Shown: positions 3,163 to 24,628 of the stretch, piece by piece
Layout of the letters: every line of letters starts with the position of its first letter
Position numbering within the stretch: position 1 is the first letter of the stretch
IMG/VR virus record: IMGVR_UViG_3300010354_000469
Coordinates: 1-28,156 of that record
DNA length: 28,156 nt
Strand: one strand, 5' to 3'
From: a virus
The notes under the pieces: model-generated
Database searches by the model: none
Told to the model about the DNA's origin: nothing
Seen by the model: only the letters and a program-made list of their open reading frames with translations
Position numbers and translations under genes: made by a program

Positions 3163-4670
3163 TGGGCATCCGCACTGAAATCCTGCGTCGGTTTGGGCTT
3201 CAACCTGTGCAGAAGGCGCTACCGCCCGTGCGTCGGCGCAATTATGCGGGTGCAATTATTAGTCGCCTGACTAGCGACTGGATGGCGTCGCAGGCCAGTG
3301 CAGACGCTGAAATTCGCACAAGCCTGAAAAAGCTGCGTGATCGTAGCCGCGAGATGGTGCGGAACAATCCGTACGCAAAGCAGGCAAAGAGGACAACGCA
3401 GATCAATGTTGTCGGCAGCGGCATCAAGATGCAATCGCAGGTTGCGCTACTTCGCGGTAGCCGCCGTGATGAGCGCACCAACAACCTGATCGAACAAAAG
3501 TGGGCATCGTGGTGCCGGGCTGAGCATTGTGATGTTGCTGGGCGCCAAAGCTTCCACATGATGGAGTGGTTGGCGATTGGCGCGCTGCCGGAATCAGGAG
3601 AGGCTCTGTTCAGGATTGTGCGCCGTCCGTTCGGTGGCAGCAGGGTGCCACTGGCGCTCCAGATGCTTGAGGCTGATTACCTGGATGAGGAGTATCAAGG
3701 CCCAACCCTCGCCCAGGGGAACGAATGGCGTATGGGCGTGGAGGTCAATGAATGGGGCCGCCCTGTGCGGTACGCCTTCCTCACGCGCCATCCAGGTGAC
3801 TACTGGTTCCAGAATGCTCCGCAGCGAAATGAAAAGCATGTCTTCCTGCCGGCGGAAGATGTCATTCATTTGTTCATCCCGGAGAGGCCGCAACAGCATC
3901 GTGGCGTGCCGTGGTTCCACTCTGTGATGGCCGATGCGCATCAGCTTCAAGGGTACGAAGAAGCTGCTGTGATCAGGGCGCGCGCTGGTGCCTCGATTAT
4001 GGGCTTTATTACAAACCAGGAGGGTGAGCTTACCGCTGATGATGTTGAAAACGAACGTCGAATTAGCGAGTTTGAGCCTGGCATGTTCAAGTATTTGATG
4101 CCAGGGGAGAATGTAACGGTGCCAAGCATCGATTCACCAGATCAACAGTTTGAGATGTTTGTTAAAAATAAAGTACGTCGATTTGCAAGTGGCTTTGGCT
4201 GTTCGTATGAGACGCTGAGTCGCGATTTTAGTGATACAAATTATTCGAGTAGCAGGCTGTCTTTGCTCGAAGATCGCGAGCATTGGAAGGTGGTGCAGGC
4301 TTACTTGATTGAGCATTTCCACCTGCGTGTATTCCGCGAGTGGCTATCGCTTGCGGTCTTGGCGGGAGAGCTGCCGTTCGATGATTTTGAAGCGCGTCCT
4401 GAGCGTTATGACACACCGCGCTGGATGGCGCGTGGCTGGGATTGGGTGGATCCACTTAAGGAAGTAAAGGCTTACCGCGAGATGGAGCAGGCGGGTTATA
4501 TGACGAAGGCGCAAATTGTTTCGAAGCTTGGCGGTGATTTTGATGATAATTTGGCTGAGCTTGCGCGAGAGCAGGCTGCCGCTGAGCGACTTGGTGTTGA
4601 GTTGGATCGGGACATTATTGAGCAGCCGATGTTGCCGGCTGATCAACCGCTGCCACAGGAGGAAGGCTGA
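3162..4670 (+). CDS. Portal protein (lambda gpB family)
   Basis: 502 aa, near lambda gpB (533). The N-terminus has the family signature: a basic start, then RSREMVRNNPYAKQA and NVVGSGIKMQ. The centre carries the EYQGP...MGVEVNEWGRPVRYAF segment and the PERPQQHRGVPWFHSVM stretch typical of this family. As a dodecameric ring at one vertex it would nucleate the prohead, dock the terminase, and form the DNA channel to the tail. Its ATG shares one base with the stop of the gpW-like gene, and its own stop overlaps the next start by one base, so the three genes look translationally coupled. The C-terminus is Gln/Pro/Glu-rich. Confidence 0.93.
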   Translation: MGIRTEILRRFGLQPVQKALPPVRRRNYAGAIISRLTSDWMASQASADAEIRTSLKKLRDRSREMVRNNPYAKQAKRTTQINVVGSGIKMQSQVALLRGSRRDERTNNLIEQKWASWCRAEHCDVAGRQSFHMMEWLAIGALPESGEALFRIVRRPFGGSRVPLALQMLEADYLDEEYQGPTLAQGNEWRMGVEVNEWGRPVRYAFLTRHPGDYWFQNAPQRNEKHVFLPAEDVIHLFIPERPQQHRGVPWFHSVMADAHQLQGYEEAAVIRARAGASIMGFITNQEGELTADDVENERRISEFEPGMFKYLMPGENVTVPSIDSPDQQFEMFVKNKVRRFASGFGCSYETLSRDFSDTNYSSSRLSLLEDREHWKVVQAYLIEHFHLRVFREWLSLAVLAGELPFDDFEARPERYDTPRWMARGWDWVDPLKEVKAYREMEQAGYMTKAQIVSKLGGDFDDNLAELAREQAAAERLGVELDRDIIEQPMLPADQPLPQEEG

Positions 4671-7570
4671 TGGGCGCGATGCCAACTGATGGGATGCGCG
4701 AGGAGGCTCGCAAATATAGGGCCTGGAAAGAAGAGGGGCGCAGGGGTGGAACCGAGGTTGCGGCCAGGCGTGCTGGGCAGATTTTGAGTGGTGAAGAGTT
4801 GAGTGATGAGACCATTCGCACGATGAGTGCATGGTTTGCTCGCCATGAAGTGGACAAGCAAGGGCAAGGATTTAGCTCTGATGAGGAAGGTTATCCATCA
4901 CCCGGCAGGGTGGCATGGGCGGCCTGGGGAGGCGATTCGGGTAAAACATGGAGTGATGCACTTGTGGCTCGTATGAACTCTGATCGTGAATTGACGGCTG
5001 ATTTGACCGCGCCACAGGTGCAGTTATATGAGGCGTATGAAGAAATTGCGGAAGAGCTTGGCCAGTTTGGTCAGGATTCCGGTCCGCATGGTTCGCATTA
5101 CATGGCAGAAAGCCCATTCGCGGAGGATGGGATGATGTGCGCGAACTGTGCATTTTATGCCGGACCACGCGCTTGCGAAATCGTGAGTGGCGATATTGCG
5201 CCAGAGGGTGTTTGTAAGTTTTGGATTATTCCAGAGCGATTGATGAGTGAGTCGCCTGAGGCGGAGGAAGGGCGTCCTTACCCAAATGAGCATGCAGCTC
5301 GATTGCGCGACCCTGGGCAGTATGACCGTTTCCGGCGGCGTAATAATGCAGCGGGCAAGGGTGTTGATTTTATTTTTGGGATCAAGACTGGGGAAAGCGG
5401 TGCTGAGCTGCAGGCAATCCGTTTCAAGCTTGCTGAGTTCACTGGCGCTGAAGCACGTGCATGGCTTCGAGAGCGTGAGTATGAACCCCTTGAATTTGAA
5501 GAGGCAACAGGTGAGCGGTCTAAGGTAGAAAAAATTGAGGTCGAAATCGTGAGCGAGGATCGTGCAGCGGCCAATGCGCTGAAGGAAGGCGATTTTGTTT
5601 CGTGGAATAGCTCAGGTGGCCGCGCTCGTGGTCGGATTGAGCATGTGATGCGCGAGGGTACGCTGGGCGTGCCTGATACTGAATTCAGCATTGACGCAAC
5701 CGAAGAGGATCCGGCTGCATTAATTCGAATTTATCGCGACGGCGAGGCAACTGAGACGATGGTGGGGCATCGCTTTAGCACTCTGACGAAGATCGATCCG
5801 ATTCGCGCTACTGAGGGCGGCAAGTTCCAGCGCTCGGAGGTGACTTCATTCCGTGCATTGGATGATGAGCGGAGTTTTGAGTTTCCGTTTAGCTCTGAGT
5901 ACCCGGTGATGCGGTACTTCGGGAATGAAGTGCTGAGTCACGAGATGGAGGCTGCAAATCTTAGCCGTTTGAATGATGGCGCGCCTTTGCTGTTTAACCA
6001 TGATCCCGATCGCGTTGTAGGTGTTGTAGAGCGCGCTTGGGTTGACGACAAAAAGAAGCGAGGATATGTGAATGTGCGCTTCTCGCGCAATAAATTTGCG
6101 CAAGAAGTGCTTGATGATGTCCGCGATAACATTTTGCGCGGCATCAGCTTCGGCTATTCAATCGACAAGATGGAAGAGCGCGGAGATGACTTTGTAGCTA
6201 CCAGATGGTCGCCTTACGAAGTCAGTGTGGTCTCTATACCTGCTGATCCTACGATTGGAATCGGCAGGTCTCTAACTGACGAGACCGTTGTTCAAGCGGC
6301 CCCCGCCGCATCACCAACACCTGAACCCGAAATGGAAAACACTCCAGATCTGGAGGTGATCCGGTCCGAGGCCGTTGAGGCCGAGCGTACCCGTATCGCC
6401 GCCATCAGCGCACTGGGCGATAAGCACCAGATGCAAGACCTGGCTCGCGAGCTGATTGATGGTGGTCGCACCATTGATGAAGCTCGTGCTGCTGTCCTTG
6501 AAAAACTCGGCACTCAACCCGTGGAACAAGTCATTCGCTCTGCTGACATCACCTCGAATGATGTTGGCCTCTCCGACAAGGAGACCCGTTCATTCAGCTT
6601 TGCTCGCGCACTGAACTTCCTCGCCAACCCGAGTGATGTTTCGGCTCGTCGTGCTGCCGAATTTGAGATTGAAGTTGGCAAGGCTGCTGCTCAAAAGTAT
6701 GAGCGCTCCTCTAACGGCATTGTGATCCCGAACGAGGTGCTGCGTCGTGATCTGGTAGTGGGTACTCCTTCTGCTGGTGGCAACCTGGTGGCCAATGAGC
6801 TGCTTGCTGGTTCATTTATTGATTTGCTGCGCAACCGTCTGGCACTGGCCCAGGCTGGCGTGACCATGCTGACCGGCCTGCAGGGCAACATCAGCATCCC
6901 CCGTCAAACCTCTGCTGCCACTGCTTACTGGGTGGGTGAGAACGGTTCGCCGACTGAGAGCCAGCAGGCAATCGACCAGGTCAACATGACCCCCAAAACT
7001 GTGGGTGCGTTTGTTGACTACAGCCGTCGTCTGCTGCTTCAGTCCAGCATCGATGTCGAGGGCATGATCCGTAACGATCTGGCTCGCGTGATTGCCCTTG
7101 AACTTGACCGCGCTGCCATCTATGGCACCGGTTCCAGCAACCAGCCCCTGGGTCTGACCAACACCACCGGTATTGGCAGCCAGACCATTACCACATTCGG
7201 TACTTTTGCTGAGTACATCGGCATGGAAACCGATGTGGCGGCTGCTAACGCTGATGCCGGCAGCCTGCGTTACATCATCAACGCTGCTGCTCGCGGTGCA
7301 CTGAAGTCGACCGAGAAAGCCACTAACACTGGCATGTTCGTGTTCGAGGACAACGAGATCAACGGTTATCCCGTGATCGTGTCCAACCAACTGCAGAACA
7401 ACGATGCTCTGTTTGGTGACTTCTCGATGATGATCATGGGCATGTGGAGCGGCCTGGATCTGACTGTTGATCCTTACGCTGGCGCTACCGCTGGTACCGT
7501 TCGCGTAATTGCTCTGCAGGACGTGGACGTGGCTATTAAGCAGCCCACTGCCTTCTGCCTCGGCACCTGA
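4670..7570 (+). CDS. Capsid polyprotein: accessory domains + S78 prohead protease + HK97-fold major capsid protein
   Basis: 966 aa, one uninterrupted frame. Domains by residue: 8-96, a module with GRRGGTEVAARRA, FARHEVDK and GYPSPGRVAWAAWGG, remembered from other phage structural proteins; 153-192, a four-cysteine motif (C157, C160, C169, C182); 202-281, a domain starting YPNEHAARLRDP; 303-375, a Tudor/HVA1-like domain (EGDFVSWNSSGG); about 386-535, an S78 prohead protease with probable triad H444 (LFNHD), S493 (GISFGYS) and E517 (PYEVSVVSIPADP); 536-640, an acidic helical linker resembling a scaffold or delta domain; about 640-966, an HK97 gp5-type coat. Protease-capsid fusions are known, and the protease is expected to cut out the N-terminal part during maturation. 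The coat part has a visibly different, C-ending codon style. Domains 1-4 are less certain than the protease and coat. Confidence 0.9.
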   Translation: MGAMPTDGMREEARKYRAWKEEGRRGGTEVAARRAGQILSGEELSDETIRTMSAWFARHEVDKQGQGFSSDEEGYPSPGRVAWAAWGGDSGKTWSDALVARMNSDRELTADLTAPQVQLYEAYEEIAEELGQFGQDSGPHGSHYMAESPFAEDGMMCANCAFYAGPRACEIVSGDIAPEGVCKFWIIPERLMSESPEAEEGRPYPNEHAARLRDPGQYDRFRRRNNAAGKGVDFIFGIKTGESGAELQAIRFKLAEFTGAEARAWLREREYEPLEFEEATGERSKVEKIEVEIVSEDRAAANALKEGDFVSWNSSGGRARGRIEHVMREGTLGVPDTEFSIDATEEDPAALIRIYRDGEATETMVGHRFSTLTKIDPIRATEGGKFQRSEVTSFRALDDERSFEFPFSSEYPVMRYFGNEVLSHEMEAANLSRLNDGAPLLFNHDPDRVVGVVERAWVDDKKKRGYVNVRFSRNKFAQEVLDDVRDNILRGISFGYSIDKMEERGDDFVATRWSPYEVSVVSIPADPTIGIGRSLTDETVVQAAPAASPTPEPEMENTPDLEVIRSEAVEAERTRIAAISALGDKHQMQDLARELIDGGRTIDEARAAVLEKLGTQPVEQVIRSADITSNDVGLSDKETRSFSFARALNFLANPSDVSARRAAEFEIEVGKAAAQKYERSSNGIVIPNEVLRRDLVVGTPSAGGNLVANELLAGSFIDLLRNRLALAQAGVTMLTGLQGNISIPRQTSAATAYWVGENGSPTESQQAIDQVNMTPKTVGAFVDYSRRLLLQSSIDVEGMIRNDLARVIALELDRAAIYGTGSSNQPLGLTNTTGIGSQTITTFGTFAEYIGMETDVAAANADAGSLRYIINAAARGALKSTEKATNTGMFVFEDNEINGYPVIVSNQLQNNDALFGDFSMMIMGMWSGLDLTVDPYAGATAGTVRVIALQDVDVAIKQPTAFCLGT

Positions 7571-22162: not shown

Positions 22163-24628
22163 GTGGCTGATTTACGAATTAGTGAACTTACGACTCTTGC
22201 CGGCGTTGACTTAGCGGCAGGCGACTTCTTGGCTGTTGCCGATGTCAGCGCAAGTGATTCTCGAAAAATTACCGTTACAGATCTGATCGGCAACGGCGCG
22301 ACGCTAATTGCTGACGCCACCATCCCCGGCGCCAAGATTCTGTTTGGCTCGCAGCAAATCCCGGGTGGCGCACTGGTCAACGGTGCTGTTGGTTCCACGC
22401 AGATCGCATCCGGCGCAGTCCACGCCTCAAAGCTGTCCGCCAACTCCACCGCTCAAGTCGTCACCTCGCTGCCAGCTACTGGTGCATACACCGGTCAGCT
22501 CGCGGTAGAGACGTCCACCAATAAGGCATACGTCTGGAACGGCAGCGCATGGGTGAGCTTCAAGGCTGCTGGCTCGATCAACCAGATCATTGCTACCGCC
22601 GGCGGTCCCGTTCAAATTTCGGTCAGCACGGTTGGTGACGTCGCCACAATCAGCGTCAATCCGGCTAATACGCCATCGGGTGGCATTTTCCTTGCGGGTC
22701 CTGCCGGTAGCGGTGGTGCCGTAAGTGGTCGCGCCATCGTTGGTTCTGACCTACCTACCGCTAGCAACACTGCCAAGGGTGGCGTGATTGTGAACGGCGA
22801 AGGTCTGCGGATGGATGGCAGCACCATCGAGATCGACGCCGACGTTTCCGCCACTGCCACCTATTCGGTGGTGACGCATAACGCCAAGGGCTTGGTAACT
22901 GCCAGCCGCGCAATTATTGCAGCGGACATGCCTGCCGCTACTGCTGGCGCCAAAGGTGCGGTGCTGCCTGGTACTGGTTTGAGCGTGACCGGTGCTGGCG
23001 CACTGAATCACACCAATGCCGTCACCTCCGGCACTGCCACCAAGGTCAGCTTTGACTCGCAGGGTCACATCACCAGTTCCAGTGCCCTTACGGCTACTGA
23101 TATTCCAGATCTGCCGGCTGAAAAGCTAACCAGCGGCGTAATCAGCGGCTCGGTGTTTGGCACCAAGTCCATCGCCGGCACCAAACTGGCGGACAACAGC
23201 GTTACCAAGATCGGTGGCGCCAGCAGTACAGCGGGCATCGTTCCCTTCCCCACCGCCGACTACGCAGGGCAATTCTTCTTTGATGCTCTCAACGGCGACC
23301 TGTACTTGTGGGATGGTGCAGCTTGGCAGCCTGTAACCATTACCAGCGGTGAACTTGTCTACGCCGGAACGTATAACGCCAGCACGAACCTCATTGCTTC
23401 TGTTACGACTGCAGGCTCTGGCGCTGGTCTTATTGCAGGCGCTGCCTTGCCGATTGCATCGACACAAAACAACCGTTATTACCTCGTTGTCATTAACAGT
23501 GGTACGGGCAGCGGTAATGCTCCCGCCGTTGCTCTACAAGCACCCGACTACCTTCTGTCTAACGGCACCGCTTGGACTTGGATTGACGTATCGGGCACCA
23601 TCGCTGCCCAAACCGCTAGCAACATCACATTTACACCCGGTGGCACAATCAGCGCCACCAACGTTCAAGCCGCCCTTGACGAGCTTGGTACAGAGAAACT
23701 TGATAAGACCGGCGGCACAATTACCGGCAACCTTGAGATTGGCACCGCTGGCAGCCTTACTTGGGAAGGCTCCACGGCTGATGCAAATGAAACGACACTG
23801 ACTGTTGTCAATCCAACCGCCGACCGCACAATCACGCTGCCTGATGTAACTGGCACGGTCATCACTTCCGGCGACACTGGTACTGTTACCAACACGATGT
23901 TGGCGGGCAGTATTGCTTACGGCAAACTCAGCCTGACTGGCACCATCGTCAATGCCGATGTTTCAGCAAGTGCTGCTATTGCCTACACCAAGTTAAACCT
24001 TGCTGGCAGCATTGCAAACGCAGATATTGCATCTGGTGCAGCTATTGCCTATACCAAACTCAGTCTTGCCGGCAACATTGTCAACGCTGACATCAACGCA
24101 TCAGCAGCAATTGCTTATACTAAGCTGGCGCTAACCGGCACCATTGTTAACGCCGACATCAGCGCATCTGCTGCAATCGCAGACACCAAGCTCAATACCA
24201 TCACCACTGCAGGCAAGGTCAGCGGCGGTGCCATCACCAGCGGCACCATCGCCGGCACCACTGCCATCAACACCAGTGGCACCATCACCACAACTGGGGC
24301 AATCACTGATGGCACGGGCAACATCCGCCGCATCCCGCAAAACGCTCAAACCGCAGCTTATGTACTGGTTGCTGCTGACGTTGGTAAACACATCAGCATT
24401 ACAACGGGCGGCGTCACTGTTCCAGCCTCGATTTTCAGCATCGGCGACAACGTGACCATCTTCAACAACAGCACCAGCAATCAAACGATTACTCAAGGCG
24501 CTGGCGTTACGTTGCGATCTGGTGGTTCAACTGCCACTGGAAACCGTACACTTGCGGGATATGGCGTCGCCACAGTGCTATGCGTTGCGGCTGACATCTT
24601 CGTGATCACTGGTACGGGTCTCACCTGA
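22163..24628 (+). CDS. Tail fibre protein with tandem 22-residue repeats
   Basis: 821 aa from GTG 22163. Residues 1-47 (ADLRISELTTL, then DFLAVADVSASDSRKITVTD) are an N-terminal attachment motif I associate with cyanophage fibres. The body is low-charge, rich in Gly/Ala/Ser/Thr, as in trimeric beta fibres. About 520-590 holds the AALDELGTEKLDKTGGTITG and TITLPDVTGTVITSGDTGT motifs. Residues 591-678 are four tandem 22-residue units of the form LxGxIVNADxxASAAIAYTK. The C-terminus (KHISITTGGVTVPAS, then NVTIFNNSTSNQTITQGAG) is a beta tip. It would form a side or central fibre binding the host surface. Confidence 0.75.
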   Translation: MADLRISELTTLAGVDLAAGDFLAVADVSASDSRKITVTDLIGNGATLIADATIPGAKILFGSQQIPGGALVNGAVGSTQIASGAVHASKLSANSTAQVVTSLPATGAYTGQLAVETSTNKAYVWNGSAWVSFKAAGSINQIIATAGGPVQISVSTVGDVATISVNPANTPSGGIFLAGPAGSGGAVSGRAIVGSDLPTASNTAKGGVIVNGEGLRMDGSTIEIDADVSATATYSVVTHNAKGLVTASRAIIAADMPAATAGAKGAVLPGTGLSVTGAGALNHTNAVTSGTATKVSFDSQGHITSSSALTATDIPDLPAEKLTSGVISGSVFGTKSIAGTKLADNSVTKIGGASSTAGIVPFPTADYAGQFFFDALNGDLYLWDGAAWQPVTITSGELVYAGTYNASTNLIASVTTAGSGAGLIAGAALPIASTQNNRYYLVVINSGTGSGNAPAVALQAPDYLLSNGTAWTWIDVSGTIAAQTASNITFTPGGTISATNVQAALDELGTEKLDKTGGTITGNLEIGTAGSLTWEGSTADANETTLTVVNPTADRTITLPDVTGTVITSGDTGTVTNTMLAGSIAYGKLSLTGTIVNADVSASAAIAYTKLNLAGSIANADIASGAAIAYTKLSLAGNIVNADINASAAIAYTKLALTGTIVNADISASAAIADTKLNTITTAGKVSGGAITSGTIAGTTAINTSGTITTTGAITDGTGNIRRIPQNAQTAAYVLVAADVGKHISITTGGVTVPASIFSIGDNVTIFNNSTSNQTITQGAGVTLRSGGSTATGNRTLAGYGVATVLCVAADIFVITGTGLT
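23933..24196 (+). repeat. Four tandem 66-nt repeats in the fibre gene
   Basis: Units at 23933-23998, 23999-24064, 24065-24130 and 24131-24196 each encode 22 residues around IVNADxxASAAIAYTKL. Nucleotide identity is lower than protein identity, so the copies are old or under protein-level selection. The motif appears once more in the next fibre, near 26658-26708. Confidence 0.85.

Follow-up and report, generated by a model that had tools for sequence, protein, structure and literature searches.

The window, i.e. the whole analysed stretch of 28,156 nucleotides (IMG/VR virus record IMGVR_UViG_3300010354_000469, positions 1 to 28,156), carries a terminase gene, a portal gene, a gene for a 966-aa capsid polyprotein and tail genes, in this order. 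According to the ORF call, the polyprotein frame spans 4670-7570 on the plus strand, on which all parts of this gene described below are located, and encodes a product of 105.7 kDa; it is preceded by a strong Shine-Dalgarno sequence (cacAGGAGGaaggctgATG, with the motif AGGAGG), and its start codon overlaps the stop codon of the portal gene. Three Pfam families score above their cut-offs: Hva1_TUDOR (residues 307-354), Peptidase_S78 (414-528) and Phage_capsid (703-965). The first-pass annotation described the protein as a five-part chain of four accessory domains, protease and coat, which is accurate, except that a scaffold (delta) segment, residues 555-702, forms a further part; the functions of the C, Nu3 and E type are indeed combined in one frame, as S78 protease, scaffold and HK97-fold coat. 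A join of unrelated genes by assembly or sequencing error, which at 4670-6300 would have refuted the first-pass reading, is ruled out for all practical purposes: many independent IMG/VR contigs from different metagenomes contain the same 966-aa frame with the same join at 90-96% identity, and the isolates CRP-821 and S-CBS1 share the plan of this gene. Elsewhere in the window, an 821-aa ORF (22163-24628) contains degenerate repeats around 'ASAAIAYTKLNLAGSIVNADI' and probably encodes a fibre-like protein; an Rfam search of the window returned no match.

The C-terminal part of the protein comprises three segments. The S78 prohead protease (residues 399-540, 5864-6289) is a member of PF04586 (38.6 bits vs. 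a cut-off of 21), with H444 conserved in 324 of 326 relatives (the rest have gaps) and S493 in 325 of 326. It is followed by the scaffold or delta-like segment (555-702, 6332-6775), delimited by an internal start codon and by the residue aligned with the start of the mature coat of phage R4C, and by the HK97-fold coat (703-966, 6776-7567, 27.9 kDa), which is a member of PF05065 (158.8 bits vs. a cut-off of 24.2) and matches the R4C coat chain (PDB 8GTA) over residues 703-959 with an E-value of 4e-53; residue 703 aligns with the first residue of the 8GTA chain, although the R4C gene encodes 629 aa. The fused protease-coat family PHROG 617 aligns to residues 395-965 (E-value 1.9e-162) and thus covers protease, scaffold and coat. 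The protein works like the prohead protease/major capsid protein fusions of NCBIfam NF045541, yet it is no formal member of that model (176 bits vs. a cut-off of 525). As the existence of these two families indicates, and as the first-pass annotation stated, the protease-coat fusion itself is already known. In the fusions of VP882, ep3 and R4C the same S78 protease, scaffold and HK97 coat are encoded by one gene right after the portal gene, whereas the gene in the window adds an accessory array of 390 residues. The capsid of R4C has T=7 symmetry and 415 coats (PMC10276861), and CRP-822 combines a long polyprotein with a 30-kb genome and a 64-nm head (PMC12629253); the R4C papers mention neither two forms of the protein nor its cleavage, and the CRP-822 paper yielded no direct evidence of either.

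The borders of the four N-terminal modules, termed here A, B, C and D, were drawn from their clean natural presence or absence in relatives. Module A (residues 1-112, 4670-5005) is a five-helix domain predicted by AlphaFold2 with a pLDDT of 95.5; it has no match in Pfam, and a Foldseek search of the PDB gave no fold match (best E-value 5.8), while its model matches predicted viral structures, many of them named prohead protease, portal or XkdF. Module B (113-201, 5006-5272) is a four-cysteine segment with a pLDDT below 50 that is absent from many near relatives; it was rejected as a high-potential iron-sulfur protein (HiPIP, PF01355: 12.7 vs. 22 bits at 149-185), the resemblance being limited to the four cysteines. 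Module C (202-292, 5273-5545) is an alpha/beta module ('RPYPNEHAARL...') with a pLDDT of 80-97 over residues 201-280. Module D (300-380, 5567-5809) belongs to Hva1_TUDOR (PF11160: 28.1 bits vs. a cut-off of 24.1) and is modelled as an SH3-like beta barrel with a pLDDT of about 90. Structure prediction, suggested earlier for residues 1-380 and run here on residues 1-400, yielded confident folds for C and D and none for B; the model gave weak SH3/KOW/Tudor-like matches (best E-value 0.026), and the Pfam scan recognised no enzyme or toxin family in A-D. The extra sequence before the protease, previously put at about 375 residues, consists of discrete N-terminal domains as proposed and by our count amounts to about 390.

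Analysis of the relatives shows that these modules are variably present around the protease-coat core. In contigs 95% identical to the window over the coat, only residues 117-201 (i.e. module B) are missing, while others lack A and B together or A alone. In the contigs and isolates searched we found 12 combinations or orders (ABCD, ABC, ACD, AC, AD, A, BCD, CD, C, D, none and the reordered A-D-C), and parsimony on a tree of 143 protease-scaffold-coat sequences required at least 17 changes for A, 8 for B, 20 for C and 18 for D. Module D varies as if it had been swapped by recombination: in the relative L016, for example, its identity to the window's D is 52%, against 91-93% for C and E. In CRP-821 a different module lies between A and C, and the same module is found behind A on the portal of contig L344; the isolates R4C and S-LBS1 possess no module at all. 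A long N-terminal array, regarded earlier as less usual, is not rare, as 200-plus relatives carry at least one of the modules. The suggested search for the same domain order recovered its plan in cultured phages: S-CBS1 and S-CBS3 of Synechococcus and CRP-811 and CRP-821 of Roseobacter exhibit the same gene order and fused modules (A+C, A+D, A+B'+C), but differ from the window in their module sets and share only 33-54% identity with it overall. All these genes are annotated 'major capsid protein'. A contig of an Akkermansiaceae MAG (L340:4920-7800) contains an A-D-C-protease-coat gene copy with an interrupted frame, likely from a decayed prophage, and in S-CBS1 (L082, 7610-8671) a gene annotated as major tropism determinant is located among head and connector genes.

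The modules are also found outside the protease-coat family; for the contigs L336 to L391 named next, the accompanying domain names (Dps-like, ClpP-like, portal and similar) were read from the sequence and not assigned by profile scans. Unfused S78 proteases carry module A N-terminally (L341 and L343; together with D in L339), and A is also found before a ClpP-like protease (L338) and, with a Dps-like (ferritin-type) domain, in front of the S78 proteases of L347 (3542-5257) and L348 (2543-4123), the former of which has a cysteine-rich segment in addition. It is furthermore present at the C-termini of portal proteins (L336, L344, L346 and L349), within a portal-MuF protein (L391) and inside the prohead protease of HGTV-1. 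Phage DC31 splits A and D between two adjacent genes, of which the second, with D, is scaffold-like and immediately precedes the coat gene; in DSL-LC01, A and B occupy two consecutive genes ahead of the coat; and in phage PaBG, A is a stand-alone gene. The objection that relatives might encode the same domains as separate genes therefore holds outside the family, for A, B or D, and not within it. This distribution suggests, on sequence grounds, that the modules may act within the head. Numerous genomes of Sphingomonas, Henriciella and Aminobacter (alphaproteobacteria; L350-L409) also have A as a stand-alone gene of ~100-110 aa, apparently outside head-gene clusters.

The protease and the scaffold are separated by a Pro/Ala-rich linker of variable length that contains M555, whose ATG (6332) opens a predicted nested gene (6332-7570) for a 412-aa scaffold-coat precursor of 43.9 kDa. 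An in-frame start codon is conserved at this position, as in nested genes of the lambda C/Nu3 type, in 326 of 326 (phylogenetically linked) relatives, 317 with ATG and 9 with GTG, while the linker columns beside it are mostly 25-60% conserved. Among non-redundant sequences, a Shine-Dalgarno motif precedes the internal ATG in 26/26 relatives of CRP-811 and in 25/29 relatives of CRP-821, compared with 27/461 and 7/402 of the other ATGs in the same region (Fisher's test, 1e-28 and 3e-30, respectively). The motif lies 5-10 nt before the start in all three frames (115/33/19) and is encoded by differing residues (e.g. QKEAT, QRSDP, TMETT); its occurrence in all frames indicates conservation at the level of DNA and not of protein. 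In each of four lineages the top window of synonymous conservation in the protease-coat region overlaps the internal start, with the peak upstream of the start in the two lineages that possess the Shine-Dalgarno motif and just downstream in the other two; in the lineage of the window, codons 553-570 form the highest synonymous peak of the whole gene (z about 6). Among cultured isolates of the wider fusion family, Met is found at or near this position in R4C, RcSaxon, S-LBS1, Mica, Persinger, ep3, VP882, MQ-4, Alexa, M29 and PT1, with Shine-Dalgarno energies (kcal/mol) of -9.5 in R4C, -7.1 in VP882, -6.1 in Persinger, and -6.0 in ep3 and RcSaxon.

Unlike the Roseobacter phages, the window has no Shine-Dalgarno sequence at the internal start; non-redundant sequences of its lineage have one in 1 of 12 cases, and those of the S-CBS1-like lineage in 0 of 24, which makes the support for the internal start in the window's lineage indirect. 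Here the linker before the start (6290-6331), where the marine relatives carry the motif, is G-poor, with a mean percentile within the gene of 4.7 in window-like and 0.5 in S-CBS1-like sequences, and relatively accessible; the G-poorness is partly due to the amino acids used (recoding test 0.11 and 0.29). Other candidate starts were rejected. Two Met codons in module B (155-156, 5132-5137) follow GGAGG, which resembles a ribosome binding site; synonymous conservation is low there and Met is incompletely conserved. Met 414 and 426, at the protease, are not conserved. Codons 561-564 (6350-6366) read GGAGGTGATCC, the perfect complement of the usual 3' end of 16S rRNA; this stretch, shared by the majority of the non-redundant sequences from the window's lineage, lies inside the synonymous peak, ~20 nt past the internal ATG, and no suitably spaced start codon follows it. 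Our search of the open literature found no report of an internal start in protease-coat fusions, and it turned up neither proteomic or ribosome-profiling data nor a virion proteome from this clade. Translation of the 412-aa scaffold-coat protein probably begins independently at the internal start, like that of lambda Nu3 inside C.

The picture that best reconciles these features, and that we regard as fairly likely, is that one frame gives rise to two co-assembling head proteins, with the modules confined to the minor, long form. Ribosomes starting at 4670 would produce the long form (A-B-C-D, S78 protease, scaffold and coat), and those starting at the ATG at 6332 the 412-aa precursor equivalent to gp5 of HK97; in the window's lineage, initiation at 6332 would rest on the unstructured, G-poor leader. 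Both forms would co-assemble via their common C-terminal half, which implies a prohead built mostly of the short form, with fewer long-form subunits that would take protease and modules inside. The protease would next cut near residue 702, which would free the coat (~264 aa) from the scaffold. What the sequence itself shows is the set of domains, their gain, loss and reordering, the conserved protease residues, and the conserved internal start codon with its nucleotide signals; we infer the use of the start in the window phage, the ratio of the forms, the cleavage near residue 702 and the role of the modules.

The single-product reading, according to which only the 966-aa chain is made, each coat subunit comes with a protease and modules of its own, and these are cleaved off early, agrees with the uninterrupted frame and with the presence of a strong Shine-Dalgarno sequence at 4670 and none at 6332 in the window's lineage. 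We nevertheless consider it improbable, given the start codon in 326/326 relatives, the Shine-Dalgarno motif in two lineages and three frames, and the synonymous peak in four lineages. Space is a further obstacle: 415 copies of residues 1-702 would take up 88-117% of a prohead cavity of 20-22 nm radius, a value assumed from HK97-like T=7 dimensions, which may not correspond to the T number of the window phage, whereas the scaffold segment alone would take up ~20%. With few long forms in a mixed assembly such overfilling would be avoided. Two expectations of the first-pass annotation thus become unlikely: the equal synthesis of protease and coat, which the conserved start at codon 555 and the separate scaffold-coat synthesis it suggests argue against, and the packing of hundreds of accessory domains into every prohead, against which speak the same start and the estimate that 415 full-length copies would occupy about 90-115% of the assumed cavity.

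Under the preferred two-product model, the modules would be optional, recombining inner-head domains, possibly making nucleic-acid or protein contacts; judging from the conserved internal start, they are probably a minor, exchangeable load and not part of every coat subunit. Their role may be that of assembly aids only, i.e. scaffold extensions or DNA or portal contacts destroyed at maturation, a reading to which we give a little less than an even chance. Binding to proteins or nucleic acids is common among SH3/Tudor and small helical domains, and A and D are found again next to prohead proteases and scaffold-like proteins in the unrelated DC31, DSL-LC01, HGTV-1 and L339; against this reading, A, B, C or D can be lost without loss of the phage type, so that no single module is essential. 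It is doubtful, in comparison, that the modules are virion cargo, i.e. a part of the long form that is kept after maturation, ejected with the DNA and active in the new host. Frequent gain and loss would suit cargo, as would the Dps-like domains that some S78 proteases carry fused next to A and the position of A at portal C-termini, which face the interior in solved portal structures, and it is established that head proteins can be packaged and injected (PMC5512222); A-D, however, contain no recognised enzyme or toxin family, and module-free isolates exist (R4C, S-LBS1). Either role is compatible with the nested start. The fullest version, in which the minor long form of a two-product gene serves as an exchangeable loading platform and some modules are retained in the virion and reach the next host together with the DNA, likewise appears rather unlikely.

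In lambda, an in-frame start inside the protease gene C yields the shorter product Nu3, and the same arrangement is predicted for the gene in the window, with the differences that the protease is of the S78 type and that the predicted nested product comprises scaffold and coat. HK97 also has an S78 protease, and the predicted 412-aa product has the layout of its gp5 (scaffold domain plus coat), but gp4 protease and gp5 delta-coat are encoded by two genes, and here by one frame. Head-packaged effectors, or polyvalent proteins, are similar in that they place extra domains on proteins destined for the head interior (PMC5512222), whereas the modules described here, at most putative cargo, include no recognised effector enzyme.

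The protease-coat fusion was already known; the new result concerns expression, i.e. the conserved internal start. If ribosomes do use it, a second gene lies hidden behind the 'major capsid protein' entries of a large and widespread group of phages, which would include R4C with its solved capsid, and there is a simple answer to how a fused protease escapes equal stoichiometry with 415 coats. Module A, a widespread fold without a solved relative in the PDB search, is a clear target for further study. If the model is true, the long form would offer a ready-made position at which domains can be placed inside the capsid in sub-stoichiometric amounts, which would help in loading cargo and in probing what inner-head modules do.
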